Assembly: GCA_015068065.1 (NCBI GenBank)
Contig: SVLE01000003.1
Coordinates: 1 to 63,927 of the forward strand
Length of the DNA stretch: 63,927 nt
Reading direction: 5' to 3'
DNA from: Oscillospiraceae bacterium
Lineage (GTDB): Bacteria > Bacillota > Clostridia > Oscillospirales > Oscillospiraceae
This document shows positions 1,405 to 24,293 of the stretch, in pieces (within the stretch, counting starts at the first letter, position 1; each line of letters opens with the position of its first letter). A program made the translations under genes and the position numbers. A model generated the notes under the pieces. The model worked only from the letters and a program-made list of their open reading frames with translations. It did not search any database and had not been told where the DNA came from.

Positions 1405-1514
1405 CGGCTCCCTCGGGTATATTTATTCGTCTTATTCATCTAATTCATCCAATTGGTCCAATTTTATTCGAGAAAAATCTATAAAGTTTCATCTCATCCA
1501 AGGTGTTTCGCTCT

Positions 1515-1548
1515 AATTCTGGTCAAAATTCTGGTCAGAAAAGTAACG
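1515..1548. repeat. Subterminal direct repeat, putative recombinase arm site
   Basis: A 34-bp stretch beginning AATTCTGGTCAAAA recurs near the other end at 24120-24153 with two differences. Inside it TCTGGTCA is itself repeated. It lies about 110 bp inside the left att copy; the partner lies about 65 bp inside the right one. Placement and internal repetition fit arm-type binding sites for the tyrosine recombinase or its excisionase. Binding is inferred. Confidence 0.6.
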
Positions 1549-1605
1549 CAAAAGCCAAAAGTAACGCGGTTTTTGTACAATACCGACAAGAAAGGAACTT
1601 TATTT

Positions 1606-2535
1606 ATGGACTATTTGACAACAAAAGAAGTCTCGGCTTTATGGAATGCTACCGAGCAGATGGTTCGCCGGTACTGTCGTGACGGCAGAATCCCCGGCGC
1701 AGTTCAAAAAGAAGGCGCCTGGTTTGTACCGGAAGGCGCAGCACGTCCAACAAGAAAGAAGCAGGAAGCACCCACAGTCCCCAAGCTCGTGAAGCAGCTG
1801 CAGCGCCAGCGGACAAAGAAGATCTACCACGGTCTTTTTGATTACATACAGGTCAATTTCTGCTATAGCTCCAACCGCATGGCAAGCAACCGGCTTATGC
1901 TCACCCAGGTGGAGGAAGTCTACAATAAAGGCAAGGTCTCGACGGGCTTTGAGCCTATCAAGGTGGATGATCTGATCGAGGCGTATAACCACATTGCCTG
2001 CGTCAACCACATCATCGATACAGCCACAGCGCGAATTTCTCAATCCTACATCCGCAAGCTGCACACCATGCTCAGCTACGGCACCATGGCGGAGCGTAAG
2101 CTCCTCTTCCATCCGGGCGAGTATCGCAGAGATACCTGTACCTTGGGCAAAACCAAAACCACGCCGCCTAAGAACATTGGCTCCCAAATGAGCGCTCTGA
2201 TCTCGGAATATGAGAGTCTTGATAAAGTGGAGCTGGCTCAGATCCTGGACTTCCATGTGCGCTTCGAGCGTATCCATCCCTTTGCAGATGGCAATGGTCG
2301 CCTCGGTCGGCTGCTCATGTTCAAGGAATGCCTGCGCCACGAGATCACACCGTTCATCCTCGATGATAAACGGCGCACAGAATACCTCAAAGGCATCCGC
2401 GAATGGGATATGGACAAGTCCACCCTGTTTACCCCATGCCTCGAAGCACAGGCTCGCTTCCAAGCCCAGATCGACCTGCAGAAGCTGCAGGAATACGCCC
2501 AGCGCTATAAGCCCGCGGACTATAAGGAGGATTGA
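1606..2535 (+). CDS. Fic domain protein with N-terminal HTH
   Basis: A 309-residue protein. Residues 1-45 form a MerR/excisionase-like HTH (LTTKEVSALWNATEQMVRRY) and residues 224-232 carry the Fic signature HPFADGNGR, which binds nucleotide and transfers AMP (or another nucleotide moiety) to target hydroxyls. Start chosen at 1606 because AAAGGAA precedes it; an upstream extension has no ribosome-binding site. The usual autoinhibitory motif (S/T)xxxE(G/N) should fall at about 89-94, but the sequence there is SNRMAS: the inhibitory Glu is Ala. Unless another partner restrains it, the enzyme may be unregulated or inhibited in trans. It is followed, with overlap, by a TnpV-like gene and lies first inside the left end of the element. 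Confidence 0.88.
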   Translation: MDYLTTKEVSALWNATEQMVRRYCRDGRIPGAVQKEGAWFVPEGAARPTRKKQEAPTVPKLVKQLQRQRTKKIYHGLFDYIQVNFCYSSNRMASNRLMLTQVEEVYNKGKVSTGFEPIKVDDLIEAYNHIACVNHIIDTATARISQSYIRKLHTMLSYGTMAERKLLFHPGEYRRDTCTLGKTKTTPPKNIGSQMSALISEYESLDKVELAQILDFHVRFERIHPFADGNGRLGRLLMFKECLRHEITPFILDDKRRTEYLKGIREWDMDKSTLFTPCLEAQARFQAQIDLQKLQEYAQRYKPADYKED

Positions 2536-2952: not shown

Positions 2953-3909
2953 CTACAGAAGTATTTCTTGCGGAGTCCACCCATTTTGTTCACAGATATA
3001 CGAATATACCCTTTCGATTGAAATCTTCACGTCCTCAATATCCTTGTTTAGCATATCTGTGTTATAGTATGCATCAACTTCTCTTCTGTGGACCATGCTA
3101 TGTCTCCGTTCAAAGATGGTATCCAAAGTTTCCAAAAGAGTTTTCTTTCTGTTATGATACGGCTTTTTCAAAGGCGCAGTTAAGTCGAGCTTTTTATCTA
3201 ACTCTTTGAAATGATATGCGATCTTGTTTATATTCTGAAACGACAATGTCCGTGCAAACGCTTCTTCAACCGACTTCTCATTTCGACTGATTTCAACCAA
3301 GTCAAACGAGGAAAGCTTTGTGTTCAAAACCTTGTCTTTCCTGTCCGAATACTTTAGCAACGCTATATATGTTTCGCGAAAATAGTCTTCCATGAGTGCG
3401 CAAAGATATGACAAATACACATTTGCGTTAAGGGAGTTAGGAGTTGGCATACCTGAAAAATTACGCATGTTTAATTCCCCTTCATTATCAGGGGGATATT
3501 TTGCCGCGGAAAAAGATAACAAGCTAAAGCAGTTATCGAGATTTGCCGCAGCAAAATAACAACCACTTTCAGCACCTCTTATTAATTCTCCAACCTCGAA
3601 ATATCTGTTCTTTCCAATATCACTGACAAACCATGCACTGCAGTATTTCCGGAAATTACGCAGAGTATCATTTTGTTTTTGTACATCATAAGAGCTGGCA
3701 AATATTTGTGTTCGAACACGATATATTAGCTCCTCTTCCGTTTCTTCTATTTTGTAGATATAGACCGGAGAATAATACTTGTAATCATCATCAAGGCTGC
3801 ACACATAGATCCCATTACGTTTTTGAAAGCCCATCATAATGATAAATTTCTCGACAGACTTTTCAGAAAAGTTCGATCTATTTATATGTACAAATGCATC
3901 ACGTCCCAT
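2953..3909 (-). CDS. HEPN-domain protein, candidate RNase
   Basis: A 318-residue protein starting at the ATG at 3909, which has GGAGGG at good spacing; the longer frame upstream lacks one. Near the C terminus, in a predicted helical region, residues 269-274 read RHSMVH, a perfect HEPN catalytic motif R-x4-H, preceded by a long helical stretch (about 160-266) as in RiboL-PSP/HEPN ribonucleases of toxin and defence systems. The N-terminal half (1-140) has no family I recognise and may be a sensor. It is not followed by an obvious MNT antitoxin; the nearest partner is the small XRE protein at 3993-4235 on the same strand. A toxin or abortive-infection role is inferred. Confidence 0.65.
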   Translation of the reverse strand: MGRDAFVHINRSNFSEKSVEKFIIMMGFQKRNGIYVCSLDDDYKYYSPVYIYKIEETEEELIYRVRTQIFASSYDVQKQNDTLRNFRKYCSAWFVSDIGKNRYFEVGELIRGAESGCYFAAANLDNCFSLLSFSAAKYPPDNEGELNMRNFSGMPTPNSLNANVYLSYLCALMEDYFRETYIALLKYSDRKDKVLNTKLSSFDLVEISRNEKSVEEAFARTLSFQNINKIAYHFKELDKKLDLTAPLKKPYHNRKKTLLETLDTIFERRHSMVHRREVDAYYNTDMLNKDIEDVKISIERVYSYICEQNGWTPQEILL

Positions 3910-3963
3910 ATTATCCCTCCTCGTATATCGCAAATGTTCCTTCAACTGTTTCTGTAAAACGCA

Positions 3964-4944: not shown

Positions 4945-5310
4945 TTATATTTCCTCGTAAACTGTCAGAACCCTTTTTTTGAGTTGCTCATAACGTGCTG
5001 CAACATCACCTGTTTGTAGCAGTTCCTCGCGGTTCCATCGATTAATGTTGGAAAACTTAATCTTTTGGGGGAATTGTTGTTTTGTAAGATCAATTTTAAG
5101 ACCATACTTTTTGTTCCAAAAATGCATAATACCGCTATCTGAAACACCACTGTGTATGGTTCCACCAAAAAATTCGTTAAATAACAGAGCAGTAATTGCA
5201 CATTGTCCAAGAGAAGGATTGGTGGGTGTCCAATTTGGTGCATCCTTATAGTACGCTGTATCGTGAGCCCAGCTTTTGGCTAGCGCCTTTCTAAATTTTT
5301 GATAATTCAT
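4945..5310 (-). CDS. YunG-family-like protein
   Basis: A 121-residue protein with the pattern of the YunG family: WSHD-T near the N terminus as WAHDTAY, then LGQCAITALL, FFGG, HFWNKKYGLKIDLTKQQF. The conserved Cys (in GQC), the H-x-W-N block and D-L-T-x-x-Q-F suggest a compact Cys/His-containing fold, possibly hydrolase-like, but I know of no demonstrated function. It is the last gene of the long leftward operon, two bases from the previous stop, with AGGAA upstream. As part of that operon it may be an effector or an accessory of the defence system. Confidence 0.65.
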   Translation of the reverse strand: MNYQKFRKALAKSWAHDTAYYKDAPNWTPTNPSLGQCAITALLFNEFFGGTIHSGVSDSGIMHFWNKKYGLKIDLTKQQFPQKIKFSNINRWNREELLQTGDVAARYEQLKKRVLTVYEEI

Positions 5311-5312
5311 TT

Positions 5313-6368
5313 CTATTCCTCACTAGATATTAACCAACTAATGGGGGCTGCAAGTGCTCCCACTATAAGCATGAGCCAAAACGCCCACCCAGGTATTCCC
5401 AACGACTCTATTGAAACCAAAGCGGAGAAGGCGGCAATGCAAGCACTTCCCAAAAAAGCAAGAAAGGCACGGATAAATCTTTTAGTACGCTTCCGTTTTA
5501 ATATGACCGGGATTCGTATTATTGTTTCCGTATCGTAATCACGAGTTTGCTTGTCGTCAATAGTAAATATCCTAAAAACAATCTGTGTTTTTAGGTTGTT
5601 CTTGGCTTTGATTGCCTGAAATCCATAATTAACGCGATCATATCGACATTCTATCCTGTCATTGTTCCCAGAAACGCAATTTAAGAAATTGGTATCGCAT
5701 TGAATCTCCACTTCTGATATTTTGTACTCCGTTTCTTCAGAACAGAAATGCCATAATTCAATTTCTTTATATTGAGCTTCCTTAATCGTAAGACTTTTGG
5801 CAAACATCTTTTTTCGGCCACTAGGTAGAATAGTGCGAAAAAAGGATGTATTTGAAAATGGTTCGTGATGCTTAAGCGCCTGAATTACAGAAATCCATAG
5901 AGCTTCCTGTCTATCAAAACTACTTTCTGCTCGTGAAACAATGTCAACGACATAGTTTAATACGTATTTAGTATTTCGACCTTCTTGTTCAAAAAAATGT
6001 TTACTGAATTTGGTGTTTTGCTCTTTGCTGACAGATGCCTCTTTGAAAGCCTGTTTGAATTCGGGGTACTCATTAATTATAAAATCAATGATACAAATCT
6101 CATTATCATAGTATGTGCTTTTGATTGTTACCCATCTAATGGGAACCATAAAGGGCTCCACGTTGGCTTTGTCGGAATTGGTCCTAAACACAATGAGGGC
6201 ACGTGAAGCCTTCAGACTGTTATCCTTTAATTGCTTGTGCAATATAGGATCAACGTACTGAGTGCGATACCGAAAGCGATACTCTGAATTGTATGGAGCA
6301 GCGATAACATTATAAATATCTTTTTTGTATTGGCCACTACTGTCAGATGAAAACAAAGTAAGTTCCAT
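5313..6368 (-). CDS. Operon protein with two C-terminal membrane segments
   Basis: A 351-residue protein I do not recognise. Residues 1-290 look soluble, with alternating beta-like stretches; a basic RKRTKR segment precedes two hydrophobic helices near 300-320 and 325-347, ending a few residues from the C terminus. GGAGA precedes the start. Lying between the SfsA-like nuclease and the YunG-like gene with 2- to 11-bp gaps, it is clearly co-transcribed with the DruA/DptFGH-like genes. C-terminal membrane anchors occur on abortive-infection effectors, so it could be a membrane-acting effector, but this is inference. Confidence 0.7.
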   Translation of the reverse strand: MELTLFSSDSSGQYKKDIYNVIAAPYNSEYRFRYRTQYVDPILHKQLKDNSLKASRALIVFRTNSDKANVEPFMVPIRWVTIKSTYYDNEICIIDFIINEYPEFKQAFKEASVSKEQNTKFSKHFFEQEGRNTKYVLNYVVDIVSRAESSFDRQEALWISVIQALKHHEPFSNTSFFRTILPSGRKKMFAKSLTIKEAQYKEIELWHFCSEETEYKISEVEIQCDTNFLNCVSGNNDRIECRYDRVNYGFQAIKAKNNLKTQIVFRIFTIDDKQTRDYDTETIIRIPVILKRKRTKRFIRAFLAFLGSACIAAFSALVSIESLGIPGWAFWLMLIVGALAAPISWLISSEE

Positions 6369-6379
6369 ATGCTTTCTCC

Positions 6380-7066
6380 TTAATAATGTATATGAATTTC
6401 TTTATCAATTGATACTGTTTTATTGTGCAGCTTGCTCGTGTATGACTTAAGAATTAATCCTGCATCAATACATTTTTTTAGCGCAACATAGAATTCGCTG
6501 TCAGTTTCTATTTGCAGCTCTTTTAGATAAGGGTGCAAAGACACAATGATTAAGTAAACCCTATAGCCATTATGTAGTAGGTTGAGCATAAGATCCATCT
6601 GCCTTAGTGTTCGTTCCGAGTATATAGTTGGAAAATGCCCAGTGTTGCCAAGTGAAATTACACTCTTGACCTCAATAACGGTATTGGAATCTGGCAAAAA
6701 CAAATCCGCCTTATATTCTTCAACTACGTGCTCTTTGAGGACATTTTTTCTTTTCCCTAGATATGAAAAACGTCTACTCTGAAGGGAGGTTTCTACAGCA
6801 CGATTAGCCATTGAGGTATTCAGTAGAATATAGTTGTGTTTATAAGGAACAGCGAACAACGCAAATTTAGTTCGTGCGTTTGGAGATTGCGTTGGCACTA
6901 AAAGGACCTGCTTCCCTTCGAGCTTAAGAAAGTTGCCAAGATGACAGGAGGATGGGACATAGCAGACAACATCTTCTCCATCAATGCTAACCTCACAGAG
7001 AAAGCGGTTTTTCAGCTCTCGTTTAAAGGTTCCTATTACAAAACCAGTGTTAGATGTTGTCTGCAT
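6380..7066 (-). CDS. SfsA-family PD-(D/E)xK nuclease in defence operon
   Basis: A 228-residue protein matching SfsA across its length: an N-terminal OB-like part (RFLCEVSIDGEDVVCYVPSS), then NTSMANRAVE, then ADLFLPDS...VIEVKSVISLG with HFPTIYSERTLRQM, and a LILKSY end. D114-ish and E-V-K at about 126-128 give the PD-(D/E)xK catalytic set of SfsA, reported as a DNA/RNA nuclease. Standard chromosomal SfsA has GxGxFPDAVSxR; here it is NTGHFPTIYSER, a divergent version. It lies 15 bp after the giant motor gene and seems to be recruited into the system as a nuclease subunit. Confidence 0.82.
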   Translation of the reverse strand: MQTTSNTGFVIGTFKRELKNRFLCEVSIDGEDVVCYVPSSCHLGNFLKLEGKQVLLVPTQSPNARTKFALFAVPYKHNYILLNTSMANRAVETSLQSRRFSYLGKRKNVLKEHVVEEYKADLFLPDSNTVIEVKSVISLGNTGHFPTIYSERTLRQMDLMLNLLHNGYRVYLIIVSLHPYLKELQIETDSEFYVALKKCIDAGLILKSYTSKLHNKTVSIDKEIHIHY

Positions 7067-7081
7067 ATGTCATTACCTCAT

Positions 7082-10000
7082 TTACAGTTTGCTAAGAAAT
7101 TCCTCAAGCTCGTCCTCGGAAATATAGAGGCCTTGCATACGAGTTGTACCGCTCTCGGTTACCATTAGCATATCACCCTTGCCGAGAAGGTTTTCGGCAC
7201 CAGAAGCATCCAGGATGGTTTGAGAATCAGTATGAGAGGGTAGCCGGAAGGACACCCGGAACGGGATAACTGCCTTTAGGGCGCCAGTTACAATTTGGGC
7301 AGAGGGGCGCTGTGTTGCAATAATTAGATGGATACCAAGATTTCGGACACGCTGCAGGAGCATGAGAAGATTCTTCTCGAAATCCTTTCTTGTTCCCTGC
7401 ATCTCAGCTGCCTGAATTAGATCAGAGTACTCATCGATTACAACAACCAAACGCTTCATTTTGTTGTCAGGATTTTTCTGATTGTAGGATTCGATATTTT
7501 TGCTTCTGCAGGAACGAAGTGCCGCTGTACGCTCTTCCTTATCCTTGGTGTTGATTTCCTGAATGCGCTCAAGAGCCTCTTCAGCATCAATTACAACGGA
7601 GCCGCCATAAAGGTGAGGTAAACCCTCAAAGAAGATGAAGTCGGTTTGTTTGGGATCGATGATCAGAAGCTCGAGCTCATCTGCGGAGTATTGCTGAAGC
7701 AGACTGACAAGAATTGCGTGCAGGAAGATCGTTTTACCGGAGCCGGTGGTTCCTGCAACGAGCATGTGCGGTGCACCAGCAATATCAACAATCTCAAAGC
7801 TTCCATCTGCAAGCTGACCCGCAATCACATCGAGGCTTCCGGTAGTGTTTTCCAGCCGATACAGGTGATCGGTTAGCTTGATTGCACCTGAGGCTCCTGC
7901 AAAGGGAACATCCACGGAAATTTTCTTAGTTCCCTTGATATGGTCAATCAGGATCTCACCATTTGCTTCTAATTGTCTGCCTATGTCAGCCTTATATTTT
8001 TCGATGCTTCTAATAGATTCACCAGACTTTAGCTCCACAGCAAAGCGGGTAAAGCGCGCAGCCTCTTGTACATCGATGCTAGTTACAGGATAAGCATTAA
8101 TGCTATAATCCCTAAACACCTTGTTGATCTTAGCACATTTTTCCTCCAGCTCCTTGCTATCCACAGCACTAGCTTGCGCGGAAGAGGGGTCTTGTGTGCT
8201 GCTATCGTCCGAGCTTGCGGTGCTGGAAGGCGTGCCAGTTGCGGAGGTCACTGCGCTAGGCACAGCTACTACATCGGCGGGAGTAACTGTAGCCACTGTT
8301 GTGTCAGGTGTGCAGTCAGTGGGCTCAACGTATTCAGAAAGTGTTAGAATAGCCTGAATTTCGTTACTGCCAATTGTGGTAAGATGGAAGTCATCATTGG
8401 CAAATTTGTCGGTTCCCTTATAAACTGCATAAGTGCTAGAGGCATTTTCAAAATCGACAAAGGTGATGTTCTTGATCACCGAAAGCTTATACTGCCCAGC
8501 AAAAAGCTCGTTCAGCTGCTCACTATAATCAAGCTTTGCTTTAGGACTTAGCTCTGCCTGGAACAACCCCTCGAACACCTGCTCGCGCAATATTTCACGC
8601 CTTGACACGGTGGTTATCTTTTCTGTGGGGCCAAACATTTCCTTTACAAGATCCTCGAGGATAGCGGCCTGCTCAACAGCGTGTCCGGAAATCTTTCCGT
8701 CTGTTACTGTAAAGGCATTTGCATTATCGCTATATGTTTTGACCTCAATAATATCAATGGTCGCTTGAGAGCCTTCCTCAATCCTAATGCCAATTAGATC
8801 AGGCAGCTTTCCATCAGCTCTATCAGACAGCCATTCCTGAGCAAGCTGGGTATCCAGACCAACAACCAGTGCATCGGGATTTTTGTGCTTGTACTTGATG
8901 GCAGCAATCGCGGTTCCTAAACTGCCTTTTCCGTGATTCGCATCAAAGATCTTGTTGGAGGTGTGAGAAACAATACTCAGCAAACCATCATCGTTAATTT
9001 CGCGTATAGACTCTATAATGCTCTTTAGGCCTTCGTCTTTAGGCATGAAATTACCTAGCTTCTTTACAAGGTCAGCATAGCCGATAATAAATTTTTTGCA
9101 GTTATTAGAGTAAACGCCGATAGAACGATAGCTATTTTCCTTATAGAATAGCTTCTCGCTAGCAGCACAAAGGGAAATATCCCAGCTTTTTAGGCTCTGA
9201 TCCAGAATCACTAACCAGTCGGCCTTGCCCAGAAGACTGTCATAGGTTTCCCTCTTAAGCGGGGTGTGGAAGAAGGTACCTGTGTGACTAAAGGCAGAGG
9301 GCTGCTCGTTTAGCTTCTCAATAATGCTGGAGTAAACGGTAAAGATTCCACCTTCGCTCGCAGGGCGGATTTCGACCTTTTCATCAACAGGATCATATTT
9401 ATAAACCTTGGGGACGCAAAGAGGGTGCAGATGAATGTGCTTGCTATTTTGTGCAGTTTCAATTTTTACCTCATTGGGGTCAAAGATTACAAGCAGATGC
9501 TGCTGTTGAGGAATTTCTGAAAGGATTTGCGTATAGGAGTGCCGCTGATCAGCAATTCGCAGCTTGAAGTTCAGACTGCGCTTTCCCTTCACCTTGCCCA
9601 GCATACCATCATTGAGGGATTCGTCGTCGATCTCGATCCAGTCGCTTGTTACTTCCTTCGTTCTATAGATGGAGACCTCTATTCCGTCAATATTGAATTC
9701 CTTGTCGTTGTTTAGTGCTTTAAGCATGTCAACAACCGCAGCCACAGAGGGCGGGTCAATAACAGAAAGCTTGAGCATCATTCCAGCATGGGGATAAAGA
9801 CAGAGGTATCGAATGATTTGTTGCTTGAGCGTATCAACACCGTTTTCACTCTGGTTAATTTGTGGTTGATTGGAATAAATAGGCAGCATGCCGATTCGAC
9901 CGGAGAGCGGCAGGAAGGCGGCGCCTCCAGTACAAATGGTAACAGGCATGAGCATAACCGAAAGGGGATCAGGGATATCGTCTGCCTTCCGGATAATAAA

Positions 10001-11620
10001 TGCCTTATCGTCCTCAGACAAATGGCAGGCCTCGCTGCCATCAATTCCGCGACTGGAGAATATTTCCTTAGCTAGCTCTATATATTTCCAGAGATATAAG
10101 GGGTGAAGCGGGGTCGGTATAGCATGATACTTAGTATCGCCAACAACAAAGACATAGTCCAAGGACATGACGATATTAATAATTTCTTTTGCTTTAGAGG
10201 CAGATATGCTCCAAATTTTAGGAAAATCCTCATTAATGGCATTAAGCAGTCTTTCATAAGCGGAAAGGTAATCTGCAAATAGAGGATACTTAGCTAACAC
10301 CTGAAGCATAGGGGCATCCTGCAAGCGTTTTCTAAAGGAAACCAGCTTGCTACGTGCGGTCAAAAAGGCGTTTAAAGCACCAGAAATAGATTCCCCATCA
10401 GTCAACAGTGTGGAGATCTTCTCAAGACTGCTGTGAACCACAGTAAGATCAGATTTTTGGAAGGGATCGAAATCATATTTATCGCGATCACGAATTGCTT
10501 CAGCAGGAGCCTGTACCTCGGCTCGAATAACACCACCAAAGTCATCCTCTGCGGCCAATTGCTCTGCGATATCCTCAGTCACGGGGTTTGCGCTAACCTC
10601 CAGCTTAATATCGCCTACATCAACCTTTACCTTTTCAGACTTTTTCCGTCGTTCTCCCTTGTCTACGTCGTGCGCTATTTGTGTCAAAACATCATCGATT
10701 TGATCGTTGCTGTTATCGAAAACAAGCTGCGCACCCAAAGCAGTTGGCTTTGAACGAGAGCCCTTGGTTTTAACCGGATTGGGAGAGGCTTTTTTTACTG
10801 CCTTTAAGCAAAGCTCCACAGACTCCAGATCCATTTTCTTGAGCAATTCTATGTCTCTAGTCTTATAGTAGCTGAGGATTAAACGAGGAACTTCCTTGCT
10901 AACATTCTGCTTAGAATAATAATTGGTAATGCTTTGCCGTTCTGCCTGCTCAAGGTTGCCGATTCTTTCAACAATTGCATGATTTCTGCGAATGCGAGTA
11001 ACAAAATCCTCCTTAGAAGGATTCTTGCTGTCAAGCTTTTCGTCTGAGCAAAGACCAAGCTTGTAATAATTTTCCTTTATTACAGTAGGAAGCTGCTTGT
11101 CTTCGGCATTTAGCAGTATTTCAAGATAGCGAAGAACTCTTTCAAAGCTCAAAATGCTCCGCACCGGCTTGCATCTTAATGCTTGAATCAAAGCTTCAAT
11201 AACGCTATTTGTATTTGATAGCTTCTTCTTTACAAGATCGCAGCTCTTTGTATATACCTTCTCCAGAGTGATTTCGGGGAACCAGCGGAGGGAGGATATC
11301 TTCTCAATTTCTGCTCTCTTGATGACGAGAATTCTGAAAACATTTTCGTCGCCAGAATTACGAGATTCTTCAGCAGCCTCAACGGTGAAGGCGTAGCTAA
11401 CCTTAGGGCTGAGTTCGGGCAGACTGCTGGTTAAAGAAACTTCCTGCTCCTTAGAAAAGCCAAGGAAGAAAAATTGCACCTGTCGGCTTGGCTCAATACT
11501 GCAGGCTAGCTTGGCGTAGTCAAAATCGGGGATTGTGACAAGTGAAACGCCATAATCCTTGGCTGCAGCATGCTCGTTCACCAGAGCTATGATTACCTGG
11601 GATAAAAGATCCTTGCTCAT
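7082..11620 (-). CDS. DptH-like giant FtsK/HerA motor with nuclease motif
   Basis: A 1512-residue protein; start at 11620 because GGAGG lies seven bases upstream. The C-terminal 300 residues are an FtsK-type motor: Walker A AGTTGSGKT at about 1288-1296, IDPKQTDF, Walker B VVVIDEYSDL near 1390, then QRVRNLGIHLIIATQRPSA. Ahead of it is an FtsK-beta-like stretch. At about 939-961 LPDLIGIRI...IIEVKT gives a plausible PD-(D/E)xK nuclease core. A low-complexity Ser/Thr/Ala/Val linker at about 1110-1155 separates the halves. Size, position as third gene after an ATPase and a helical protein, and motor type match DptH (DndH), the large subunit of phosphorothioate-dependent restriction. The homology to DptH itself is inferred from organisation. 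Confidence 0.78.
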   Translation of the reverse strand: MSKDLLSQVIIALVNEHAAAKDYGVSLVTIPDFDYAKLACSIEPSRQVQFFFLGFSKEQEVSLTSSLPELSPKVSYAFTVEAAEESRNSGDENVFRILVIKRAEIEKISSLRWFPEITLEKVYTKSCDLVKKKLSNTNSVIEALIQALRCKPVRSILSFERVLRYLEILLNAEDKQLPTVIKENYYKLGLCSDEKLDSKNPSKEDFVTRIRRNHAIVERIGNLEQAERQSITNYYSKQNVSKEVPRLILSYYKTRDIELLKKMDLESVELCLKAVKKASPNPVKTKGSRSKPTALGAQLVFDNSNDQIDDVLTQIAHDVDKGERRKKSEKVKVDVGDIKLEVSANPVTEDIAEQLAAEDDFGGVIRAEVQAPAEAIRDRDKYDFDPFQKSDLTVVHSSLEKISTLLTDGESISGALNAFLTARSKLVSFRKRLQDAPMLQVLAKYPLFADYLSAYERLLNAINEDFPKIWSISASKAKEIINIVMSLDYVFVVGDTKYHAIPTPLHPLYLWKYIELAKEIFSSRGIDGSEACHLSEDDKAFIIRKADDIPDPLSVMLMPVTICTGGAAFLPLSGRIGMLPIYSNQPQINQSENGVDTLKQQIIRYLCLYPHAGMMLKLSVIDPPSVAAVVDMLKALNNDKEFNIDGIEVSIYRTKEVTSDWIEIDDESLNDGMLGKVKGKRSLNFKLRIADQRHSYTQILSEIPQQQHLLVIFDPNEVKIETAQNSKHIHLHPLCVPKVYKYDPVDEKVEIRPASEGGIFTVYSSIIEKLNEQPSAFSHTGTFFHTPLKRETYDSLLGKADWLVILDQSLKSWDISLCAASEKLFYKENSYRSIGVYSNNCKKFIIGYADLVKKLGNFMPKDEGLKSIIESIREINDDGLLSIVSHTSNKIFDANHGKGSLGTAIAAIKYKHKNPDALVVGLDTQLAQEWLSDRADGKLPDLIGIRIEEGSQATIDIIEVKTYSDNANAFTVTDGKISGHAVEQAAILEDLVKEMFGPTEKITTVSRREILREQVFEGLFQAELSPKAKLDYSEQLNELFAGQYKLSVIKNITFVDFENASSTYAVYKGTDKFANDDFHLTTIGSNEIQAILTLSEYVEPTDCTPDTTVATVTPADVVAVPSAVTSATGTPSSTASSDDSSTQDPSSAQASAVDSKELEEKCAKINKVFRDYSINAYPVTSIDVQEAARFTRFAVELKSGESIRSIEKYKADIGRQLEANGEILIDHIKGTKKISVDVPFAGASGAIKLTDHLYRLENTTGSLDVIAGQLADGSFEIVDIAGAPHMLVAGTTGSGKTIFLHAILVSLLQQYSADELELLIIDPKQTDFIFFEGLPHLYGGSVVIDAEEALERIQEINTKDKEERTAALRSCRSKNIESYNQKNPDNKMKRLVVVIDEYSDLIQAAEMQGTRKDFEKNLLMLLQRVRNLGIHLIIATQRPSAQIVTGALKAVIPFRVSFRLPSHTDSQTILDASGAENLLGKGDMLMVTESGTTRMQGLYISEDELEEFLSKL

Positions 11621-11621
11621 A

Positions 11622-13097
11622 TTACAGCCTCCATCCAATTAGGGTAACGCCATCTGCGTATTTCTTTCCTAAGCCCAGCGAAATATATGTATTAGCCAGG
11701 CACTGAGCATTAATGCTCAAATCACCACGCAAATCGCCCGGAGTCGATTGCGCAATATTGCATTGCTCTAGGATACTATATTCCTTCTCTGCATCAACGC
11801 CGATGAGAACATTATATGCAGATAAAAGCTTTTCTCCAAGCTCCTTAAGCTCAATGCCGTCACATAGCTCGTCAGGCGTGAGTGCACTTAGGGTAATTGT
11901 CTCAAGCGTAAAGCTGTTAATCAAAAAACGCTTTTTGGCACGGTTGCCCTTCGGCCCAACTAGGCCGGAGCGAACGCCAAGCACTCGGCAGAAATCAGAG
12001 GGGGAGTTGTGCTTGTAGTCGAAGGTATACAGAGCGATTTGGAGTGCTCTAGATAGTGCATTTAGAGGGGTATCTCCCTCGCTGCAGAAGCTATCAAAAT
12101 AGCTTTTGATCGCAGCTTTAATTGTATCCTCTCTGTCTGTGGAGGAGAAAATCATTGCCTCAATCCATTTGTTGCATTCGTCAATGGTATCGGCAACTAT
12201 TGTGGGCCTAATCCAAGAGCAAATAGTGTTTGCGTAGTAATCCTCAACAGATTTTTTGCACAAATTGTAGGTTTGCTCACTAGCCTTCTTAATCGACTCT
12301 AAATCGCCGCCTGCATCAAGAAGCACCGGAGAGTTCTCCTCACCATATACGCTATAGTTACAATGTGTAAGGTATAAGAAGGTGGAGAAAATTGAGAAGT
12401 TTACAATACGCTGAAGTACGGTTAGGCTGTTCTTTGCTTCGCCGGTCTTTTCGAGATTGAGAGCAAGCCGATCAAAGCCATTGCGTAAGGCCTGCTTTAC
12501 AGAATCCCATTTGATATCTGTGTCCTCGGGATATTCTACATCTCCAACGTTTCGCTTCTCTTTTTCTGAGGGAAAGGCAATGATGGGCTTAACCAGCTTT
12601 GTAATGTCATCGCTGTCATTCTCAAGAGCTTCTTGGAGAAGCTCGATTACAGGAGAGTGCTTGCCGTTAATTTTCTTAGCAAGGATACCAAACAGGAAGT
12701 CTCCGATTCGGCTTTCGGAATTGACACGCTTCCTAACCATCCAATGTGAGGAAATTGTCATCACCGAGAATTCGTAGCTAGTATATAGCGCATTATCCTG
12801 ATCAAAGATATCATCCAGCAGATAGCGAAATTCCTTTACATTAGAAGGCTTTTCATGGTAGCCATTTTGCAGAATCTGCTCGTATTTTGTTATTATTGTC
12901 TCAGAAGGAATGGCATCCTTTCTGCCATCGCTAATAATCCATTCATGGATATCTCGACTATCACAGGTCTCTCCAATACAGTTTCTAAACAAGCCGTTAG
13001 CAATATGAGGAGGCTTAGTTGCATTTGTTGCAGGAGAAAAGCCCAGAAAATCGTTGCATATAGCCTCGTCTATTTTCTTTAAGGTATCTGTGGCCAT
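11622..13097 (-). CDS. DptG-like middle protein of defence operon
   Basis: A 491-residue, largely helical protein with no P-loop or catalytic motif that I can recognise. Start set at 13097 by GGAGG seven bases upstream; the stop is one base from the start region of the motor gene and the start overlaps the ATPase gene end, so translation is probably coupled on both sides. In the DptF-DptG-DptH (DndFGH) cassette the middle gene has about this length and no enzymatic motif. A block near the C terminus (KRFLINSFTLETITL and later DLRGDLSINAQCLANTYISL) is reminiscent of bridging subunits that join an ATPase to a HerA-type motor. The G assignment rests on gene order. Confidence 0.6.
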   Translation of the reverse strand: MATDTLKKIDEAICNDFLGFSPATNATKPPHIANGLFRNCIGETCDSRDIHEWIISDGRKDAIPSETIITKYEQILQNGYHEKPSNVKEFRYLLDDIFDQDNALYTSYEFSVMTISSHWMVRKRVNSESRIGDFLFGILAKKINGKHSPVIELLQEALENDSDDITKLVKPIIAFPSEKEKRNVGDVEYPEDTDIKWDSVKQALRNGFDRLALNLEKTGEAKNSLTVLQRIVNFSIFSTFLYLTHCNYSVYGEENSPVLLDAGGDLESIKKASEQTYNLCKKSVEDYYANTICSWIRPTIVADTIDECNKWIEAMIFSSTDREDTIKAAIKSYFDSFCSEGDTPLNALSRALQIALYTFDYKHNSPSDFCRVLGVRSGLVGPKGNRAKKRFLINSFTLETITLSALTPDELCDGIELKELGEKLLSAYNVLIGVDAEKEYSILEQCNIAQSTPGDLRGDLSINAQCLANTYISLGLGKKYADGVTLIGWRL

Positions 13098-13099
13098 GT

Positions 13100-14641
13100 T
13101 CAATCCTCCTCAAAGCCGTATTGTCCATCTTGGATGTTTACAACCTTCTTGTAGCTCCGTCTTCTGCTAGCTATGATGACCTCACCGTCATCGTTCTCCT
13201 CGGTCAGTTTATTGTCGTCAAGCTGCTGAAGGAACATTGCAGCAGCCTGTTCATATTGAGGTGCGAGCAGGCAAACAGGATAACCATCCTCAATGGCATT
13301 AAGCGTTCGAATAAAGTCAATATCAAGGCGAAGCACAGGCTCATCAGCTGCCTTCGGCTTTAGAATAATGTGGTTGGGAATATATTCTAATCCAGACAAC
13401 CAGTCAGCAGGCCTAGGCATCAAAATATCCAGCTCACTAGAATCTATAGATTTACAGGATACTGCAACCGCGGCAGGAATGCTCATGTCATATCTGTGCG
13501 TTGTCCAAATGTGCAACTGCTTTTTGTCATCAGAGGAGGGCAAGAACAGCTTGTTAATGGCACGAACAAGGCGCTCCTTGATTTTCTTCTTCTGAGAATC
13601 AAAGCTTGTGAACATCGCAGTTGTCTTTTTGATTTCATCGGGCTGTAGCGCAAAGAGATCATGACCGTGAATGTTCTCAAAGTAGTACTGACGCTTGATT
13701 CTTTTGAAGCACTCGACAGCACCCTCTACATCATCCTCGAAGGAGGGATCGTCGGGCCATTTATCGGGAACATCCAACAGCCACCCATCGACACATTCAC
13801 CATTCCAAAGTTCTTCGTCAAGACTTGGTGATGATAAATAAATGGGATCGAACTGCTGAACAACCCGAAGAAGCTGATTTTCACTATCAAAAATTGCCGA
13901 ATAGTACTTTTCGCCTTCAGAATCCTCCATAAGGCAAGCAGTAAAAAGAATTGCGAGAGCACCCAAGATGTCACGGATAGCGAAGTGGTCGCATTCGGCA
14001 GCGGCCAACTGCATAAGACGAAGCACCTGCTGCTTGATTTCCGGAATGGACATCGCACGCAAATTATACTCTAATGCTTTGTTGTGCTCAGGGTCCTCGG
14101 AAATCAACGCAATAAACTTGTCAATCAACTCACCCAGCAGGTTTCGATCTGCATCAAGAAGGTTTCTTTCATTTAAATCGATCAGCGCAACTCTGCCGGT
14201 TAGAGGGTGAGAGGTGGTATAGGTGATGGCACTTTTCTTTGCAGCGATAATTTCGCTGTACATTTCGGGAGAGTCCTTCTTAAGCTGCTTACAAAGCTTC
14301 ATAAAGGGATACTCGTTTACAGCAATAATCGCAGGACGGTGCGCCGTATAGCATGTAATGATATCCTGTGAAATTTTTTCGTAGCCCGTGATGTGGTTCA
14401 TATCCTTCTCAACGTAAGCATCGTGCTTCCGAATAGCAGCGTCAACGGCCTTGATCACAAAGGTTTTCCCATCACCAGGATTGCCGGTAAGGAAAATGAT
14501 TTTCCCCTTACCAAGCATATCCTTGATTAGCCTCTCAACATTTGATGTAATATGGAGGAGCTGCAGCTCTTCGGGTGACATATGGTCGGAATAGCAGTTC
14601 TTTCCATTATTAAGCTTTTTGATAAATTCGAGGTTAGACAT
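13100..14641 (-). CDS. DptF-like P-loop ATPase
   Basis: A 513-residue protein with Walker A GNPGDGKT at residues 53-60, followed by a DptF-like run: a helix (IIAVNEYPFMKLCKQL) and LIDLNERNLL about 75 and 110 residues further on, the latter typical of DptF/related STAND-like ATPases. GGAGAGG is upstream of the ATG. It overlaps or abuts its neighbours (14653 upstream gene, 13097 downstream start), so it belongs to the same transcript. By analogy to DndF it would hydrolyse ATP to license the giant motor. Related small ATPases also occur in BREX and other systems; the F assignment is reinforced by the F-G-H order. Confidence 0.7.
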   Translation of the reverse strand: MSNLEFIKKLNNGKNCYSDHMSPEELQLLHITSNVERLIKDMLGKGKIIFLTGNPGDGKTFVIKAVDAAIRKHDAYVEKDMNHITGYEKISQDIITCYTAHRPAIIAVNEYPFMKLCKQLKKDSPEMYSEIIAAKKSAITYTTSHPLTGRVALIDLNERNLLDADRNLLGELIDKFIALISEDPEHNKALEYNLRAMSIPEIKQQVLRLMQLAAAECDHFAIRDILGALAILFTACLMEDSEGEKYYSAIFDSENQLLRVVQQFDPIYLSSPSLDEELWNGECVDGWLLDVPDKWPDDPSFEDDVEGAVECFKRIKRQYYFENIHGHDLFALQPDEIKKTTAMFTSFDSQKKKIKERLVRAINKLFLPSSDDKKQLHIWTTHRYDMSIPAAVAVSCKSIDSSELDILMPRPADWLSGLEYIPNHIILKPKAADEPVLRLDIDFIRTLNAIEDGYPVCLLAPQYEQAAAMFLQQLDDNKLTEENDDGEVIIASRRRSYKKVVNIQDGQYGFEED

Positions 14642-14652
14642 ACAATCCTCTC

Positions 14653-16692
14653 CTATATATTTCCTAGAAGAATAGTTTCAATGTTAAAATTGCTAAGTCG
14701 TTGTACGATGTCAACCGAGGCAAGCCGCATTGTTAGCCATCGATCATACCAAAAATCGATAAGCTCCTGGGTCTTCCGAGTGACCTCTGCAGGATTATCG
14801 AGATCATAGCCATAATCGACCGTATCCTCTAAGCCAAGTAGAAAGCTGTTTGTATTTCGTGCAAGATCAATAGAATAAACAATTCTAGGAGAGTAGTGCT
14901 TTAGAAAAGCATCGGCACGAATTCCAATGCAGCTTAATCCACGACTAATCATTCTAAATCGAGGACTTGTTCCTTCTCCAAAAACGTGGCCAATCTTTTT
15001 CCCGCCATCCTGTTCCTCTAAAAGTTTGGAGAATAGAGAGGTTGTATCCTTGGAAAAGAAAACCGTACCATAGCCTTCGGTTATTCCCATTTTTCTAAAT
15101 TCAAGCGTAAAATCCTCTGACATGGGTACCTTAATACGGTTGTACTGGCTACTACCCATAGCGTACAAGCTCGTGGTCCCGAGATATACGAGATGGCTAT
15201 CTCGTATAACGCGCTTTCCCTTCATTCGCGAGGCTATTTCACTTACTTGATTTTGATATTTGTACGTATAATCCCTTATTACCGTCGGGCTACAAGCAAG
15301 CATACTGATTAGTTTTCCACCAAGTATCTCGTTATATGGCGGAATAGATCCACATACAATGATATCCATCATATTGGAGCCTATCTTTCTTTTTCTGTTT
15401 GCAATAAGAGCCGTATTAATCGCCTTTCGGCCACTTTCGGTAGACAATAGTTCCTTGAGGCAATCATAATTTGTTTTGCCCTTTAAGCTACTAAGCACAC
15501 GCTTTGCGATCAAAAGCTTGGCTAACTCCGCCGCTCTTTTACGCTTAAAAAGATTACTCTGTGCTTCTTGATCCCAGCGTGGAGATTCTTCGTTGTTGCG
15601 ATTATTAATTGACAACTCTGCATATTCAGCCGCCATCGCCAACAACCCATCGATTGTTTCCTGCTTTGGATGCTTTGTGTTTCTGTGATACCCCAAATCC
15701 TTGAGATAGATCTCTGATATAGCTTCTTCGATACTATCCAAAAGCAACGGATATAAGTCATCGGCATATTGGGAGGCACGTGCTAAATGCTCATTTTTAC
15801 TCTCAATCTGTCTGCAGACTTTGGTTCTTATTTTTTTACCATCTGTTCCGCTAATTATTTGCTCACATATAGTTTCCTCTGTTTTGATGGCCATATTTTT
15901 CTTTATAGCCTCAACAGTCCAACCGATGTCATCATCCCTAACGGTAAGATTTAAAACGGAATTTCCTAGTGCAAAAATACCAATGATAGGATGGCAAGGC
16001 TGCAACCGATCTCTAACCAGATAAAACAGATTTCTTCCTGGCATAGTCTTATATGGAATAGACCATGTATAACGGAAGTATCTCCATATGTCAGAAAGCT
16101 TGTATCCGGTATATTGGTCTCTGTCGTTTGTCACTAGTTGAATATACGGCTCGCATACGGGCTCATTATTCTGAATATTTCGAATCAAGATATTTGAATC
16201 ACCAATCAAATTGCGTATCGAAATTTTGACACCTTGGTATTCCTTGATTGCTTCCATTTTTTGGATAAAAGCAACTGTTGACTCGGACTTAAACTGTGCG
16301 TTTCTTTCTGCACTTAAGCGGTATCTAAGCTTTTGTTTATCGTCAAGATTCTCTATCTCCATTTTCAGGATCAGTGTCCCATTCTCAACCTCAAAAATCC
16401 AGCCTTGAAAAAAAAGATCAATAAGGACATTTAATGATGCCGCATACTTTAGCGCCTCAATTCTATCTTCAGCAGTTTCAATATCAATCTCACTCAATTC
16501 GCGCTTTATAAGCGCAGTTCTATTAGTCGGAAGCGTATGACTCATTTGCTGAATCAAGCCCAAGAATCTATTATTATACTGATCGTTCAGAGCCGGCGCA
16601 TAAATCTCTGACGCAACCGTATGCTCTTTTATGTTCGAAGCGGAGCCCATAGCCCTTTTTCCTCCAATACATTCTACTTTGGATAATTCCAT
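14653..16692 (-). CDS. DUF4338 / DruA-like protein
   Basis: A 679-residue protein carrying the blocks of DUF4338, the DruA family of Druantia: HPIIGIFALGNSVLNL followed by VRDDDIGW at about 232-257, then GSSQYNRIKVP near 510, TEGYGTVFFS near 537 and a FWYDRWLTMR ending near 655. Typical DruA proteins are shorter; this one has a long insertion or extra N-terminal part. AGAGG precedes the ATG. It is the first gene of the leftward operon, 11 bp before the DptF-like ATPase. Its Druantia partners, in particular the giant DruE helicase, are absent. I infer that it acts as a DNA-recognising subunit, but the biochemical role of DUF4338 is not something the sequence shows. Confidence 0.85.
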   Translation of the reverse strand: MELSKVECIGGKRAMGSASNIKEHTVASEIYAPALNDQYNNRFLGLIQQMSHTLPTNRTALIKRELSEIDIETAEDRIEALKYAASLNVLIDLFFQGWIFEVENGTLILKMEIENLDDKQKLRYRLSAERNAQFKSESTVAFIQKMEAIKEYQGVKISIRNLIGDSNILIRNIQNNEPVCEPYIQLVTNDRDQYTGYKLSDIWRYFRYTWSIPYKTMPGRNLFYLVRDRLQPCHPIIGIFALGNSVLNLTVRDDDIGWTVEAIKKNMAIKTEETICEQIISGTDGKKIRTKVCRQIESKNEHLARASQYADDLYPLLLDSIEEAISEIYLKDLGYHRNTKHPKQETIDGLLAMAAEYAELSINNRNNEESPRWDQEAQSNLFKRKRAAELAKLLIAKRVLSSLKGKTNYDCLKELLSTESGRKAINTALIANRKRKIGSNMMDIIVCGSIPPYNEILGGKLISMLACSPTVIRDYTYKYQNQVSEIASRMKGKRVIRDSHLVYLGTTSLYAMGSSQYNRIKVPMSEDFTLEFRKMGITEGYGTVFFSKDTTSLFSKLLEEQDGGKKIGHVFGEGTSPRFRMISRGLSCIGIRADAFLKHYSPRIVYSIDLARNTNSFLLGLEDTVDYGYDLDNPAEVTRKTQELIDFWYDRWLTMRLASVDIVQRLSNFNIETILLGNI

Positions 16693-16901: not shown

Positions 16902-17726
16902 TTATGTTACCAACGTTTTAAGAATATCCATGATTTGTCCATATTCGATATCTGCAGCATAGGAGAATTGCTTGCGGTATTTCTCCCACATGGCGCGCAG
17001 TTCTGGACTTTCTTCAATATTGCGCAGGATCTCCGGCACATTTGCGATCTGTTTCGCAGTGCCGCGATGGGCCGCTGTTGCCCTTAGCGCATCAGCAAAT
17101 ACAGACTTATTGAATTTCTGTGTTGTAGGCAGTATGTAGGCATCGTAAAAATCTCTGGGACGGGTATTGAACACACCGCGCCGCAGGATGGTTTCCACCT
17201 TTTCGGCCATGACGGTTTCAATGTTGTACGCCCACAGCTCATAGGACTTCTCATCATCAAAGATCTCAGAGAAGTTGTACTGCACCGCATGGGGCGTGAT
17301 GGCATCACCGGTGGAAATATCAATACTCAGCGGAGTCAGGAGCGTGTCGAACTTGGCATTCAACGCCACGCGGTAGCCGCCGTAAATATCGTCCTCTCGG
17401 ATGGGAGAGATAGTACCGATCTCAAATACTACGCCATCGTCAAAGGGGATGGCACAGACCTGTTCCAAAGCACTGCGGATCGCATCCGGTGTAAGGGGCA
17501 GGTTTTTCAATGTGGCGTCCAAGTCCATTGTTGCCCGGTTATCCAGACCAACGATAGCCGCCACCAGCATACCGCCCTTCAACACAAATTTCTCCTTGTA
17601 TTCCGAAGCGGACAGGCGCACCAACAGACGCTCGAACATATAGTTCTGCAAGATGACCTGTGCCGGGATATTCTTCTGTTTGGCGATGTTTCGGATCTTC
17701 GCTTTCAGACTCATTGCGTTGCTCAC
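16902..17726 (-). CDS. abiEii: AbiEii-type nucleotidyltransferase toxin
   Basis: A 274-residue member of the AbiEii/AbiGii nucleotidyltransferase family. Visible blocks are FVLKGGMLVAAI (family KGG), RATMDLDATLKN (the DxD metal-binding pair), SIDISTGDAITP, ETVMAEKVETIL and RPRDFYDAYIL. These toxins block growth on phage infection by modifying RNA through nucleotide transfer. Its ATG overlaps the AbiEi stop by four bases (ATGA), the usual coupling of this type IV toxin-antitoxin pair. Length is normal for the family and all key motifs are present, so it is probably active. Confidence 0.92.
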   Translation of the reverse strand: MSNAMSLKAKIRNIAKQKNIPAQVILQNYMFERLLVRLSASEYKEKFVLKGGMLVAAIVGLDNRATMDLDATLKNLPLTPDAIRSALEQVCAIPFDDGVVFEIGTISPIREDDIYGGYRVALNAKFDTLLTPLSIDISTGDAITPHAVQYNFSEIFDDEKSYELWAYNIETVMAEKVETILRRGVFNTRPRDFYDAYILPTTQKFNKSVFADALRATAAHRGTAKQIANVPEILRNIEESPELRAMWEKYRKQFSYAADIEYGQIMDILKTLVT

Positions 17727-18316
17727 AGAAGCACCTCCAAATACTGCCGCAGGACATTTGCCACGCGCATCTTTTTTGCATAAGAATGAAGTTTGTTCAA
17801 ATCTTTTTTAGAACTGGCCGCATAGAGCTTCAAGGCGGCGAGAAATGTTTCAGTCCCAACTTTATTGCGGCTGCGGATCATGTCGCAGATCGTGCGTTCA
17901 AGATCATACACCGGGACTTCATTTCCGGCAGGGGTGGTCAGAGTAGTCCGGCCAAGATCGAACAGTTCCGGCTTGATGTAATAAATTTTACACTCACTCC
18001 GGATCGCAGCTGATACGGTGTAGTCGGACGGAACTGTAATCGTGTGCTCAAAAGGCGTCCTATCGGAAATACTATGAAGAAACAGTGCCGTTTCATGGGA
18101 AAGAATAATCCTATCAGAGCGCTTCGCAATAGAAAGAAGTTCATCCTGCAAATCGTCAGTAAGGATGTACTGCCCTTGCACAATTCTATGAATTTTATTT
18201 TCTTTGCACAGCTTATATAGGATCGCTTTTGATATGCCATGCGCAATAGCGTTTTTTGTTTCAATGATGCCACCATGTCCTTGAGCAATAGCAGCAAGCT
18301 CGGTCATGTAATCCAT
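17723..18316 (-). CDS. abiEi: AbiEi-type antitoxin / repressor
   Basis: A 197-residue protein with an N-terminal winged helix (TELAAIAQGHGGIIETKNAI, then ILYKLCKENKIHRIVQGQYI) and a C-terminal antitoxin domain containing LSHETALFLHSISDRTPF and the block VYDLERTICDMIR typical of AbiEi. Start at 18316, set by GAGGTG; the frame is open further upstream, but without a ribosome-binding site. In AbiE systems this protein neutralises the toxin without stable binding and represses its own operon by binding inverted repeats in the promoter. Repeats that fit lie upstream at 18353-18433. Confidence 0.9.
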   Translation of the reverse strand: MDYMTELAAIAQGHGGIIETKNAIAHGISKAILYKLCKENKIHRIVQGQYILTDDLQDELLSIAKRSDRIILSHETALFLHSISDRTPFEHTITVPSDYTVSAAIRSECKIYYIKPELFDLGRTTLTTPAGNEVPVYDLERTICDMIRSRNKVGTETFLAALKLYAASSKKDLNKLHSYAKKMRVANVLRQYLEVLL

Positions 18317-18352
18317 TCGATCACCTCGCGATATCAACTCAAAGATATTATA

Positions 18353-18433
18353 GACAATTTCGTTATCAAAGTCAACGCCAAGAGAAAACTTTCGCAAAGA
18401 AACTAACGGTAATTTCGTTGTGAAAGTAAATAC
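18353..18433 (-). promoter_or_regulatory. Putative AbiEi operator repeats
   Basis: AATTTCGTTATCAAAGT at 18356-18372 and AATTTCGTTGTGAAAGT at 18413-18429 are direct repeats differing at two positions. The second also pairs imperfectly with ACTTTCGCAAAGAAACT at about 18388-18404, forming an inverted repeat. They lie 40-115 bp upstream of AbiEi, where known AbiEi repressors bind. Binding is inferred. Confidence 0.5.
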
Positions 18434-18491
18434 ATTCGCCAACCTACATTGTTCAGCTTACAATCATTAACAGCTTAGGTATACGGCTGTT

Positions 18492-22760: not shown

Positions 22761-22887
22761 CAAAACAACCGCTGTCTGCAGATGTAAATTTTCTGCAGAT
22801 GGCGGTATGACCACTTCCAAAACGCACAGGGTTATGTTAAGCTTTAAATGCGAAACGCCTTGTTGCCAGATGAAAGAAAGGAGTAAC

Positions 22888-24051: not shown

Positions 24052-24072
24052 AAAAAAGCGGCTCGTCAAAAA

Positions 24073-24092
24073 CGAACCGCCGACCTCTTGAA
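24073..24092. repeat. Third, partial copy of the tRNA core
   Basis: Twenty bases match 24236-24255 of the tRNA (and the left att copy) with one mismatch, covering CGAACCGC and GACCTCTTGAA. The first part also forms a hairpin with the integrase end. It could be a remnant of an earlier insertion or an accessory core site. Confidence 0.4.
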
Positions 24093-24119
24093 ACAGATTG
24101 GATTTTTTGGACATTTCGT

Positions 24120-24153
24120 AATTCTGGTCAAAACTCTGGTCAGAAAAGTACCG
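24120..24153. repeat. Subterminal direct repeat, right copy
   Basis: Partner of 1515-1548: 34 bases with two differences, again with TCTGGTCA twice in tandem. It lies between the integrase stop and the tRNA. Confidence 0.6.
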
Positions 24154-24185
24154 AGCAAAATAAAAGTACCGCATAACAGCAAAAA

Positions 24186-24212
24186 GCCTTGAAAACCAAT
24201 GGTTTTCAAGGC
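24186..24212 (-). terminator. Terminator of tRNA-Ala
   Basis: Perfect stem GCCTTGAAAACC / GGTTTTCAAGGC, followed by TTTTT on the minus strand, five bases past the tRNA CCA end. It is element-derived, replacing the original at 1331-1353. Confidence 0.8.
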
Positions 24213-24217
24213 TTCGA

Positions 24218-24293
<76 letters not shown>

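Follow-up and report, generated by a model that had tools for sequence, protein, structure and literature searches.

The closest described relatives of the system analyzed here are the restriction modules of the phosphorothioate (PT) systems, SspFGH of SspABCD-SspFGH (PMC8092258) and DndFGH/DptFGH (PMC10853773, PMC11662687). DndFGH has been reported as a 2:2:1 complex whose translocation-coupled nicking is restrained by PT marks; without PT it harms the host (PMC11662687), and SspFGH is then likewise toxic (PMC8092258). Standalone DndFGH and a fusion of DUF4338 to DndF have both been published, and the main text of PMC10853773 reads DUF4338 as an occasional co-effector. The same domain defines DruA, a named defence protein for which our literature search found no demonstrated activity and whose gene is the first of the type I Druantia operon (DruABCDE). 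A 2026 review (PMC12904381) lists Druantia as DNA-methylation sensing and cites work on a phage protein that promotes site-specific methylation and thereby escapes type I Druantia. Here we describe an operon on a stretch of 63,927 nucleotides from an Oscillospiraceae bacterium (contig SVLE01000003.1, assembly GCA_015068065.1; the whole stretch is called the window), in which a DruA-like gene stands ahead of an F-G-H module that is followed by an SfsA-family gene. The window is one whole contig (C30) of a 1.68-Mb assembly of 71 contigs with a completeness of 87.57%.

The operon consists of seven open reading frames (ORFs), all on the minus strand and consecutive from 16692 down to 4945. The DruA-like gene (14653..16692, 679 amino acids) encodes a full-length DUF4338/DruA protein with a predicted GNAT fold that is interrupted by a helical insertion. 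It is followed by gene F (13100..14641, 513 amino acids), for an SspF/DndF-like P-loop ATPase with the Walker A sequence GNPGDGKT, gene G (11622..13097), for an SspG/DndG-like protein, and gene H (7082..11620), for an SspH/DndH-like protein with a PD-(D/E)xK core and then an FtsK-alpha domain and FtsK motor. The likely start codons of G and H are the ATGs at 13097 (491 amino acids) and 11620 (1512 amino acids). These are preferred because a GGAGG-type site, read from the DNA, precedes both, and because the upstream TTG starts of the ORF list would give overlap with the gene before. With the ATG starts the intergenic gaps along the operon are 1 to 15 nt, and the seven close-packed leftward genes of the original prediction stand as to coordinates, strand, sizes and families. 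Promoter-like sites (32, against 25.6 in shuffled sequences) and terminator-like sites (12 against 11.5) were near expectation, and an Rfam scan of bases 1-30000 recovered no RNA family besides a tRNA.

In searches with hidden Markov models (HMMs) against single sequences, only F and the C-terminus of H matched Ssp models: F matched the PADLOC SspF/DndF models at ~1e-6, and H matched SspH at 2.1e-63 over its C-terminal 400 residues only. F obtained 18.6 of the 50 bits set as cut-off for the DptF equivalog TIGR03238, a model that found no DptF above cut-off in 61 genomes, and G had no family match in the scans with domain and defence models. Sequence searches of solved structures connected F to generic P-loop ATPases (from E 0.0025) and H to FtsK/EccC-type motor chains only, with nothing below E 0.2 for G. 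Because these single-sequence scores are weak, partial or nil, the assignment rests on profile-profile comparison, plus the fold for G. F aligned with SspF at Prob 99.8 and E 1e-30, G with SspG at E 1e-19 and H with SspH at E 3e-41, while mismatched controls gave a Prob of 0.4 or less, and for G structure prediction gave a fold that agrees with the crystal structure of DndG (7EXX). Judged from these profiles, F, G and H are homologues of SspF, SspG and SspH in the same F-G-H order, and the model of G carries the DndG fold. The identity, order and sizes foreseen for the module were thereby upheld. Its label as DptF/G/H-like held for the fold of G, but not for F, which stays below the DptF cut-off, and the nearest module by sequence is SspFGH.

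The motor of H matches FtsK_SpoIIIE (2.9e-31), FtsK_alpha (1.1e-5) and the PADLOC model mad8 (1e-23); together with the restriction endonuclease motif this is the composition of the clade-2 DndH described in PMC10853773. The PD-(D/E)xK residues, identified from the sequence rather than from a modelled fold, are D947, E965 and K967 in the numbering of the TTG start, and over 62 aligned rows they are kept in 59, 58 and 58, respectively. In the Walker A element of F the residues G, G, D, G and K are kept in all 77 rows. The operon differs from SspABCD-SspFGH in the DruA gene ahead of F, the added SfsA gene and the absence of SspBCD from the operon and of a detected SspC from the genome; from DndFGH/DptFGH it differs in the sub-threshold F and in DruA, which is near-obligate here and not an occasional fusion.

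To survey the occurrence of the system, a genome collection was searched using F alone with the single peptide pattern TGNPGDGK, so that F proteins without the pattern were missed. In this way 78 loci (L numbers) were obtained from Firmicutes, Actinobacteria, Bacteroidetes, Chloroflexi, Myxococcota, haloarchaea and others. The set is partly redundant with our genomes (G numbers), as four loci (L020, L031, L072 and L073) come from contigs that also belong to G194, G507, G238 and G410, respectively, and NZ_CP126157.1 contributes two loci (L066 and L088). The latter, a Halobaculum plasmid, carries two DruA-FGH loci (L004/L088 and L066) with several genes in pieces in both, and in L013/L072 (G238) one F-G-H-SfsA set is flanked by two DruA genes.

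DruA was present in 75 of the 78 loci. As counted by script, it preceded F in 39, was fused to F in 33 and lay elsewhere in L061 and L082; in L082 and L087 F was hidden by the ORF filter, and its match starts at most 10 bases after DruA. Where the genes are separate, the gap between them is at most 60 nt in 31 of 39. Two of the three loci without DruA end with the contig (L029 and L091), and the third, L093, has a NERD domain and a protein kinase on F instead. The gene order thus recurs in distant phyla, far beyond chance, and the reading of the hybrid as something found only here gave way to that of a recurrent unit of bacteria and haloarchaea. In 398 genomes of the phylum, strong G matches and full-length DruA occurred in the same four (the window's genome G000, G507, G238 and G410). 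Two remote G matches (E about 2e-5 and 3e-5) were SspG-like proteins, and a short DUF4338 match stood alone in eleven other genomes, with a marginal one in three.

Trees were built from 57 entries, namely the window and 56 loci (L005 taken from a plasmid collection) in which each of the four proteins was found exactly once. The tree of DruA has 38 of 54 splits in common with that of F+G+H, compared to 37 of 54 for F and G, and pairwise identities of DruA with F, G or H correlate at 0.95-0.97. The DruA-F fusion does not form one clade in any of the five trees. Based on the above, DruA is a near-obligate and co-inherited part of a recurrent four-gene unit, DruA-F-G-H, a finding that appears to be new. 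In a literature search combining DruA with DptF/DptH, or DUF4338 with DndF, PMC10853773 alone was relevant, and the words DruA and SfsA do not occur in its main text (supplementary files lay outside the scope).

The protein itself matches PF14236 (1.5e-34) and PADLOC DruA1 (4.7e-127), in agreement with the family originally proposed. A sequence search of solved structures gave nothing below E 0.2, and Foldseek alone returned no PDB match for the model at E<=0.001. The best fold alignments of the model are to GNAT acyltransferases, the GNAT toxins AtaT and KacT among them. In a viral fold library the single match at E<=0.001 was an uncharacterised Faunusvirus protein (1.4e-9), and a recognisable DNA-modifying GNAT was not among the top 50 matches listed. 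The main text of PMC10853773 likewise labels DUF4338 a GNAT domain. The proposal that DruA supplies recognition thus found no support: as judged from its modelled fold, DruA is probably an acyltransferase-like enzyme of the GNAT type and not a recognition module, and recognition of DNA is more likely to reside in G, with its DndG fold, and in H. The residues C, Y, second G, K and L of a putative pyrophosphate-loop motif are kept in 78 of 78 rows, and basic residues occupy 14 of 57 near-invariant positions in DruA (p 0.013), against 5 of 21 in F, 2 of 16 in G and 3 of 26 in H. Between the window and the haloarchaea DruA is also the best conserved part (30-35% identity versus 21-26%). A phage origin was considered and set aside as far as the phage collection is concerned, as 50,697 phage records held no DruA or G match at 1e-5.

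The gene following H encodes the SfsA-family nuclease paralogue (6380..7066, 228 amino acids), which matches PF03749 (1e-14) and SfsA_N (PF17746, 1.4e-8). It shares family and catalytic residues with housekeeping SfsA, but with 77.7 bits it does not reach the cut-off (126.45) of the sfsA equivalog TIGR00230. The catalytic D...E-x-K is conserved (D in 37, E in 37 and K in 35 of 37 rows, three repeated loci included: L003/L020, L012/L031 and L013/L072), and both K exceptions are one truncated gene counted twice. With intact residues in H and in SfsA alike, the expected pair of nucleases found support. In 59 loci, H was present with 870 or more bases of sequence past its end. SfsA occurred in 33 of them, here classified by record titles: 31 of 32 in Firmicutes (the exception being L043) and 2 of 27 in others (L022 and L065, both metagenome-assembled). 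In 29 of the 33 it follows H, L031 has it on the opposite strand, and in L069, L076 and L089 it stands ahead of DruA. When 33 genomes were scored with the sfsA model, linked copies reached 88 bits at most, as against 161-214 for ten copies elsewhere; two further non-operon fragments had 91 bits (G000, C21) and 37 bits (G624, C14). A profile built from the linked copies, and thus biased by construction, gave 264-334 for these against 33-97 elsewhere. By sequence, then, a distinct SfsA paralogue is the regular partner of DruA-F-G-H in Firmicutes, by which a widespread nuclease family gains a distinct, defence-linked branch. Both this partnership and the head-to-head arrangement that some relatives show with Druantia DruE (see below) appear to be new; the word SfsA occurred in none of the matches listed in a literature search pairing it with these systems, supplementary files being outside its scope.

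The original prediction noted neither DruE nor any Dnd/Ssp modification gene on the element, and this extends to the genome: at its completeness of 87.57%, the models for SspC, DndC and DruE found no match, though weak DruE matches are common (12 of 14 control genomes). The PT search covered SspC and DndC in 42 genomes: 41 hosts (the window's own and, chosen by the authors, 40 from among the 78 loci) and the positive control G255, which matched. The DruE search covered the window's genome and the genomes of 41 of the 78 loci, again author-chosen. Of the 41 hosts, 26 lacked SspC and DndC at E<=1e-3 and 35 lacked a strong match, defined as more than 100 bits for SspC or more than 35 bits for DndC/SspD-like proteins; strong matches occurred in G238, G600, G611, G620, G626 and G628. 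Weak DndC matches mean little, because 5 of the 14 controls also have them at E<=1e-3, and some SspC matches may be the related BrxC, as the SspC of L016 also matches BrxC. Considering that the genome is incomplete, the absence of PT genes is likely rather than certain. The supposed dependence of F-G-H on DndBCDE does not hold for its relatives in general either, as in PMC10853773 the full set of eight dnd genes is reported for 316 of 5228 taxa and DndFGH is called standalone.

We have considerable confidence in the general framework, namely that the operon specifies a translocating nickase complex and that DruA is among its core parts. The fuller reading, a standalone restriction complex of the SspFGH/DndFGH type with DruA as fourth core subunit and the role of DruA included, is on balance a probable one, and a function in anti-phage defence is probable by analogy, from homology and island context. 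In this scheme, G and the middle of H would bind and test DNA, and F would gate the complex with nucleotide. The FtsK motor would pump DNA past the nuclease, which would nick invader DNA like DndFGH does, after which SfsA would degrade or widen the nicked strand. DruA, probably with a GNAT fold, would act on nucleic acid and would replace the PT module, preventing attack on host DNA either through a mark on self DNA or through licensing of the complex. Since SspFGH and DndFGH damage the host without PT, a PT-free homologous complex needs another safeguard, and DruA is the best candidate because it is constant and often fused to F. With DruA as the constant partner of a complex whose relatives need a self mark, its function becomes a testable question. 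Such a marking or licensing role is proposed tentatively. A more specific version, in which DruA is a GNAT-type DNA modifier that writes a new, non-methyl and non-phosphorothioate self mark to be read by F-G-H (in Druantia type I by the DruE arm), seems doubtful; if true, the operon would be a self-contained restriction-modification system with a novel DNA mark, found in bacteria and haloarchaea and equipped with SfsA as second nuclease. There is a parallel in the BREX-related capture (BRC) systems of PMC12839542, in which a HerA/FtsK motor is likewise accompanied by a GNAT protein, and for the latter that paper proposes a helping role in the marking of host DNA. Those systems differ in being built on PglZ and BrxC-like components, and the main text of that paper contains none of the words DUF4338, DruA and SfsA.

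Several observations speak against the place thus given to DruA. Among distant pairs DruA tracks F and G weakly (0.12 and 0.30) and H better (0.54), and for pairs below 40% DruA identity the correlation is near nil (-0.15, 0.00 and 0.18). In L093 the kinase occupies the slot of DruA, and PMC10853773 assigns a co-effector role to the domains that occur fused to DndF, DUF4338 included. These last points lead to the best-surviving alternative, in which FGH restricts alone and DruA, released or activated by F, acylates a host molecule (e.g. aminoacyl-tRNA) and stops the cell if restriction fails. In its favor, PMC10853773 lists DUF4338 (as GNAT) beside HEPN, NERD and kinase fusions of DndF, the same slot holds NERD-kinase in L093 and PglW/PD-T4-6-type kinase domains in L015, and the fold matches include AtaT and KacT. 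Nevertheless, DruA is near-universal rather than variable, its tree agrees with that of FGH to much the same degree as the trees of F and G agree with each other, no other part is as well conserved between window and haloarchaea, and with ~680 amino acids and long extra regions it is far from the AtaT and KacT chains of 160-180. We therefore consider a back-up effector of this kind rather unlikely.

The 33 fusions imply a one-to-one contact of DruA with F, and GNAT enzymes often acylate proteins. DruA could thus also be a subunit with a structural or regulatory role, whose GNAT fold is either inactive or acylates F, G or H; no nucleic acid would then be modified. The strictness of the pyrophosphate-loop motif suggests an active site, though, and the basic bias suggests a polyanionic substrate (coenzyme A itself being a polyanion), so that a purely structural or protein-directed role appears unlikely.

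The family match of DruA and the presence of DruE within 10 kb in 9 of the 78 loci (L005, L033, L051, L052, L054, L055, L081, L087 and L094) could indicate a branch of Druantia type I with FGH in place of DruB-DruC. In the haloarchaeal L005, L051, L054 and L055 a divergent operon even lies head to head with DruA-FGH, encoding a protein of 484-524 amino acids (which in L005 matches CoiA_N weakly), a DruD-like protein and DruE. DruA comes first in the operon in both systems, but no DruE match was obtained in the window's genome or in the reachable flanks of the other 69 loci, many of which are cut by contig ends, DruB, DruC and DruD had no PADLOC match in the operon, and type I DruA of P. putida has 409 amino acids against 679 here. 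Identification of F or G with DruB or DruC, or of H with DruC, was rejected on profile-profile comparison with one DruB and one DruC sequence, both from the type I locus L097, in which Prob did not exceed 1.1. A Druantia branch is accordingly very improbable. Least probable is ordinary PT-dependent restriction, in which an Ssp/Dnd modification module would be encoded at another place in the host genome, with DruA and SfsA as passengers. The strong SspC or DndC/SspD-like genes in six of the 41 hosts and the incomplete assembly could be cited for it, but against it stand the lack of any SspC or DndC match in the window's genome, the lack of a strong one in 35 of the 41 hosts and the co-inheritance of DruA.

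In L078, L083 and L094 H has 1040-1061 residues without a motor-profile match (no Pfam domain was found in the H of L078, which was scanned), and the divergent genes nearby include a DndH motor in L078 and L083 and DruE in L094. The pattern points to a DruA-F-G core around which motors have been swapped. In L078 and L083 two F-G-H modules stand head to head, a motorless DruA-F-G-H and an F-G-DndH with motor. In L094 (2-7724, minus strand) a protein of 1167 amino acids resembles the F-like proteins of L078, L082 and L083, has a DruD-like C-terminal match, making it an apparent F-DruD fusion, and is followed by DruE1. L093 (6103-17969) encodes NERD-kinase-SspF, a mad7-like G and a HerA-type H in this order, which suggests that mad6-8 of the MADS systems, whose mad8 model also matches the H motor of the window, are relatives of F-G-H. 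There a kinase replaces DruA, and MADS is listed as methylation-based in PMC12904381. F-G-H, Druantia DruE and MADS-like kinase versions thus appear to exchange parts around a similar core. A further context of DruA was seen on a Leisingera plasmid (L095, 10019-22822), where it comes after an MzaB-like ATPase and ahead of a DEAD helicase of 2094 amino acids and a NERD protein.

The last two genes of the operon are accessory. They encode a membrane protein (5313..6368, 351 amino acids) with a pair of hydrophobic C-terminal segments, as read from the sequence, which had no family match in the domain and defence model scans, and the YunG-family protein that accompanies it (4945..5310, 121 amino acids; PF24585, 4.1e-29). 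Both stand beside the operon in L019, L026 and L067, the membrane protein stands alone in L092, and in the 398 phylum genomes it occurs only in its own. For the neighbours of other loci, six proteins out of 150 neighbour ORFs were scanned for families, together with four of the window. A family of ~345 amino acids lies near the system in L059, L071, L078, L080, L081 and L087 (titled Sandaracinaceae, Plesiocystis, Corallococcus, proteobacterium, Myxococcota and Deltaproteobacteria). In L059 it follows H at a distance of 2 bp and in L071 at one of 12 bp; the L071 member has no Pfam match. The family is possibly a local counterpart of SfsA. A conserved pair was also seen upstream of the fused DruA-F in L053, L056, L064, L067 and L077, represented in L053 by ABC-3C CTD11 and DUF2326/AAA proteins.

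The operon is located in an AT-rich region, with a GC fraction of 0.41-0.47 in the first 20 kb against 0.51-0.60 beyond 24 kb. Next to tRNA-Ala (24218-24293) lie an AAA_25/DnaB-like gene and a tyrosine integrase gene (22732-24048; PF00589, 5.3e-21), and the region 21459-24293 forms the right border of an integrated element, the left end of which seems to lie beyond the contig. No exact repeat of at least 14 nt starting at 24191-24230, around the end of the tRNA, was present in the window. Immediately upstream of the operon, and likewise on the minus strand, lies an AbiEi/AbiEii type IV toxin-antitoxin pair (16902-18442); it was rejected as a part of the system, as no other surveyed locus had an AbiE match. 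The same island also carries a HEPN (RiboL-PSP-like) gene just below its cut-off (2956-3945, minus strand) and a Fic-domain gene with a helix-turn-helix (1453-2532, plus strand).

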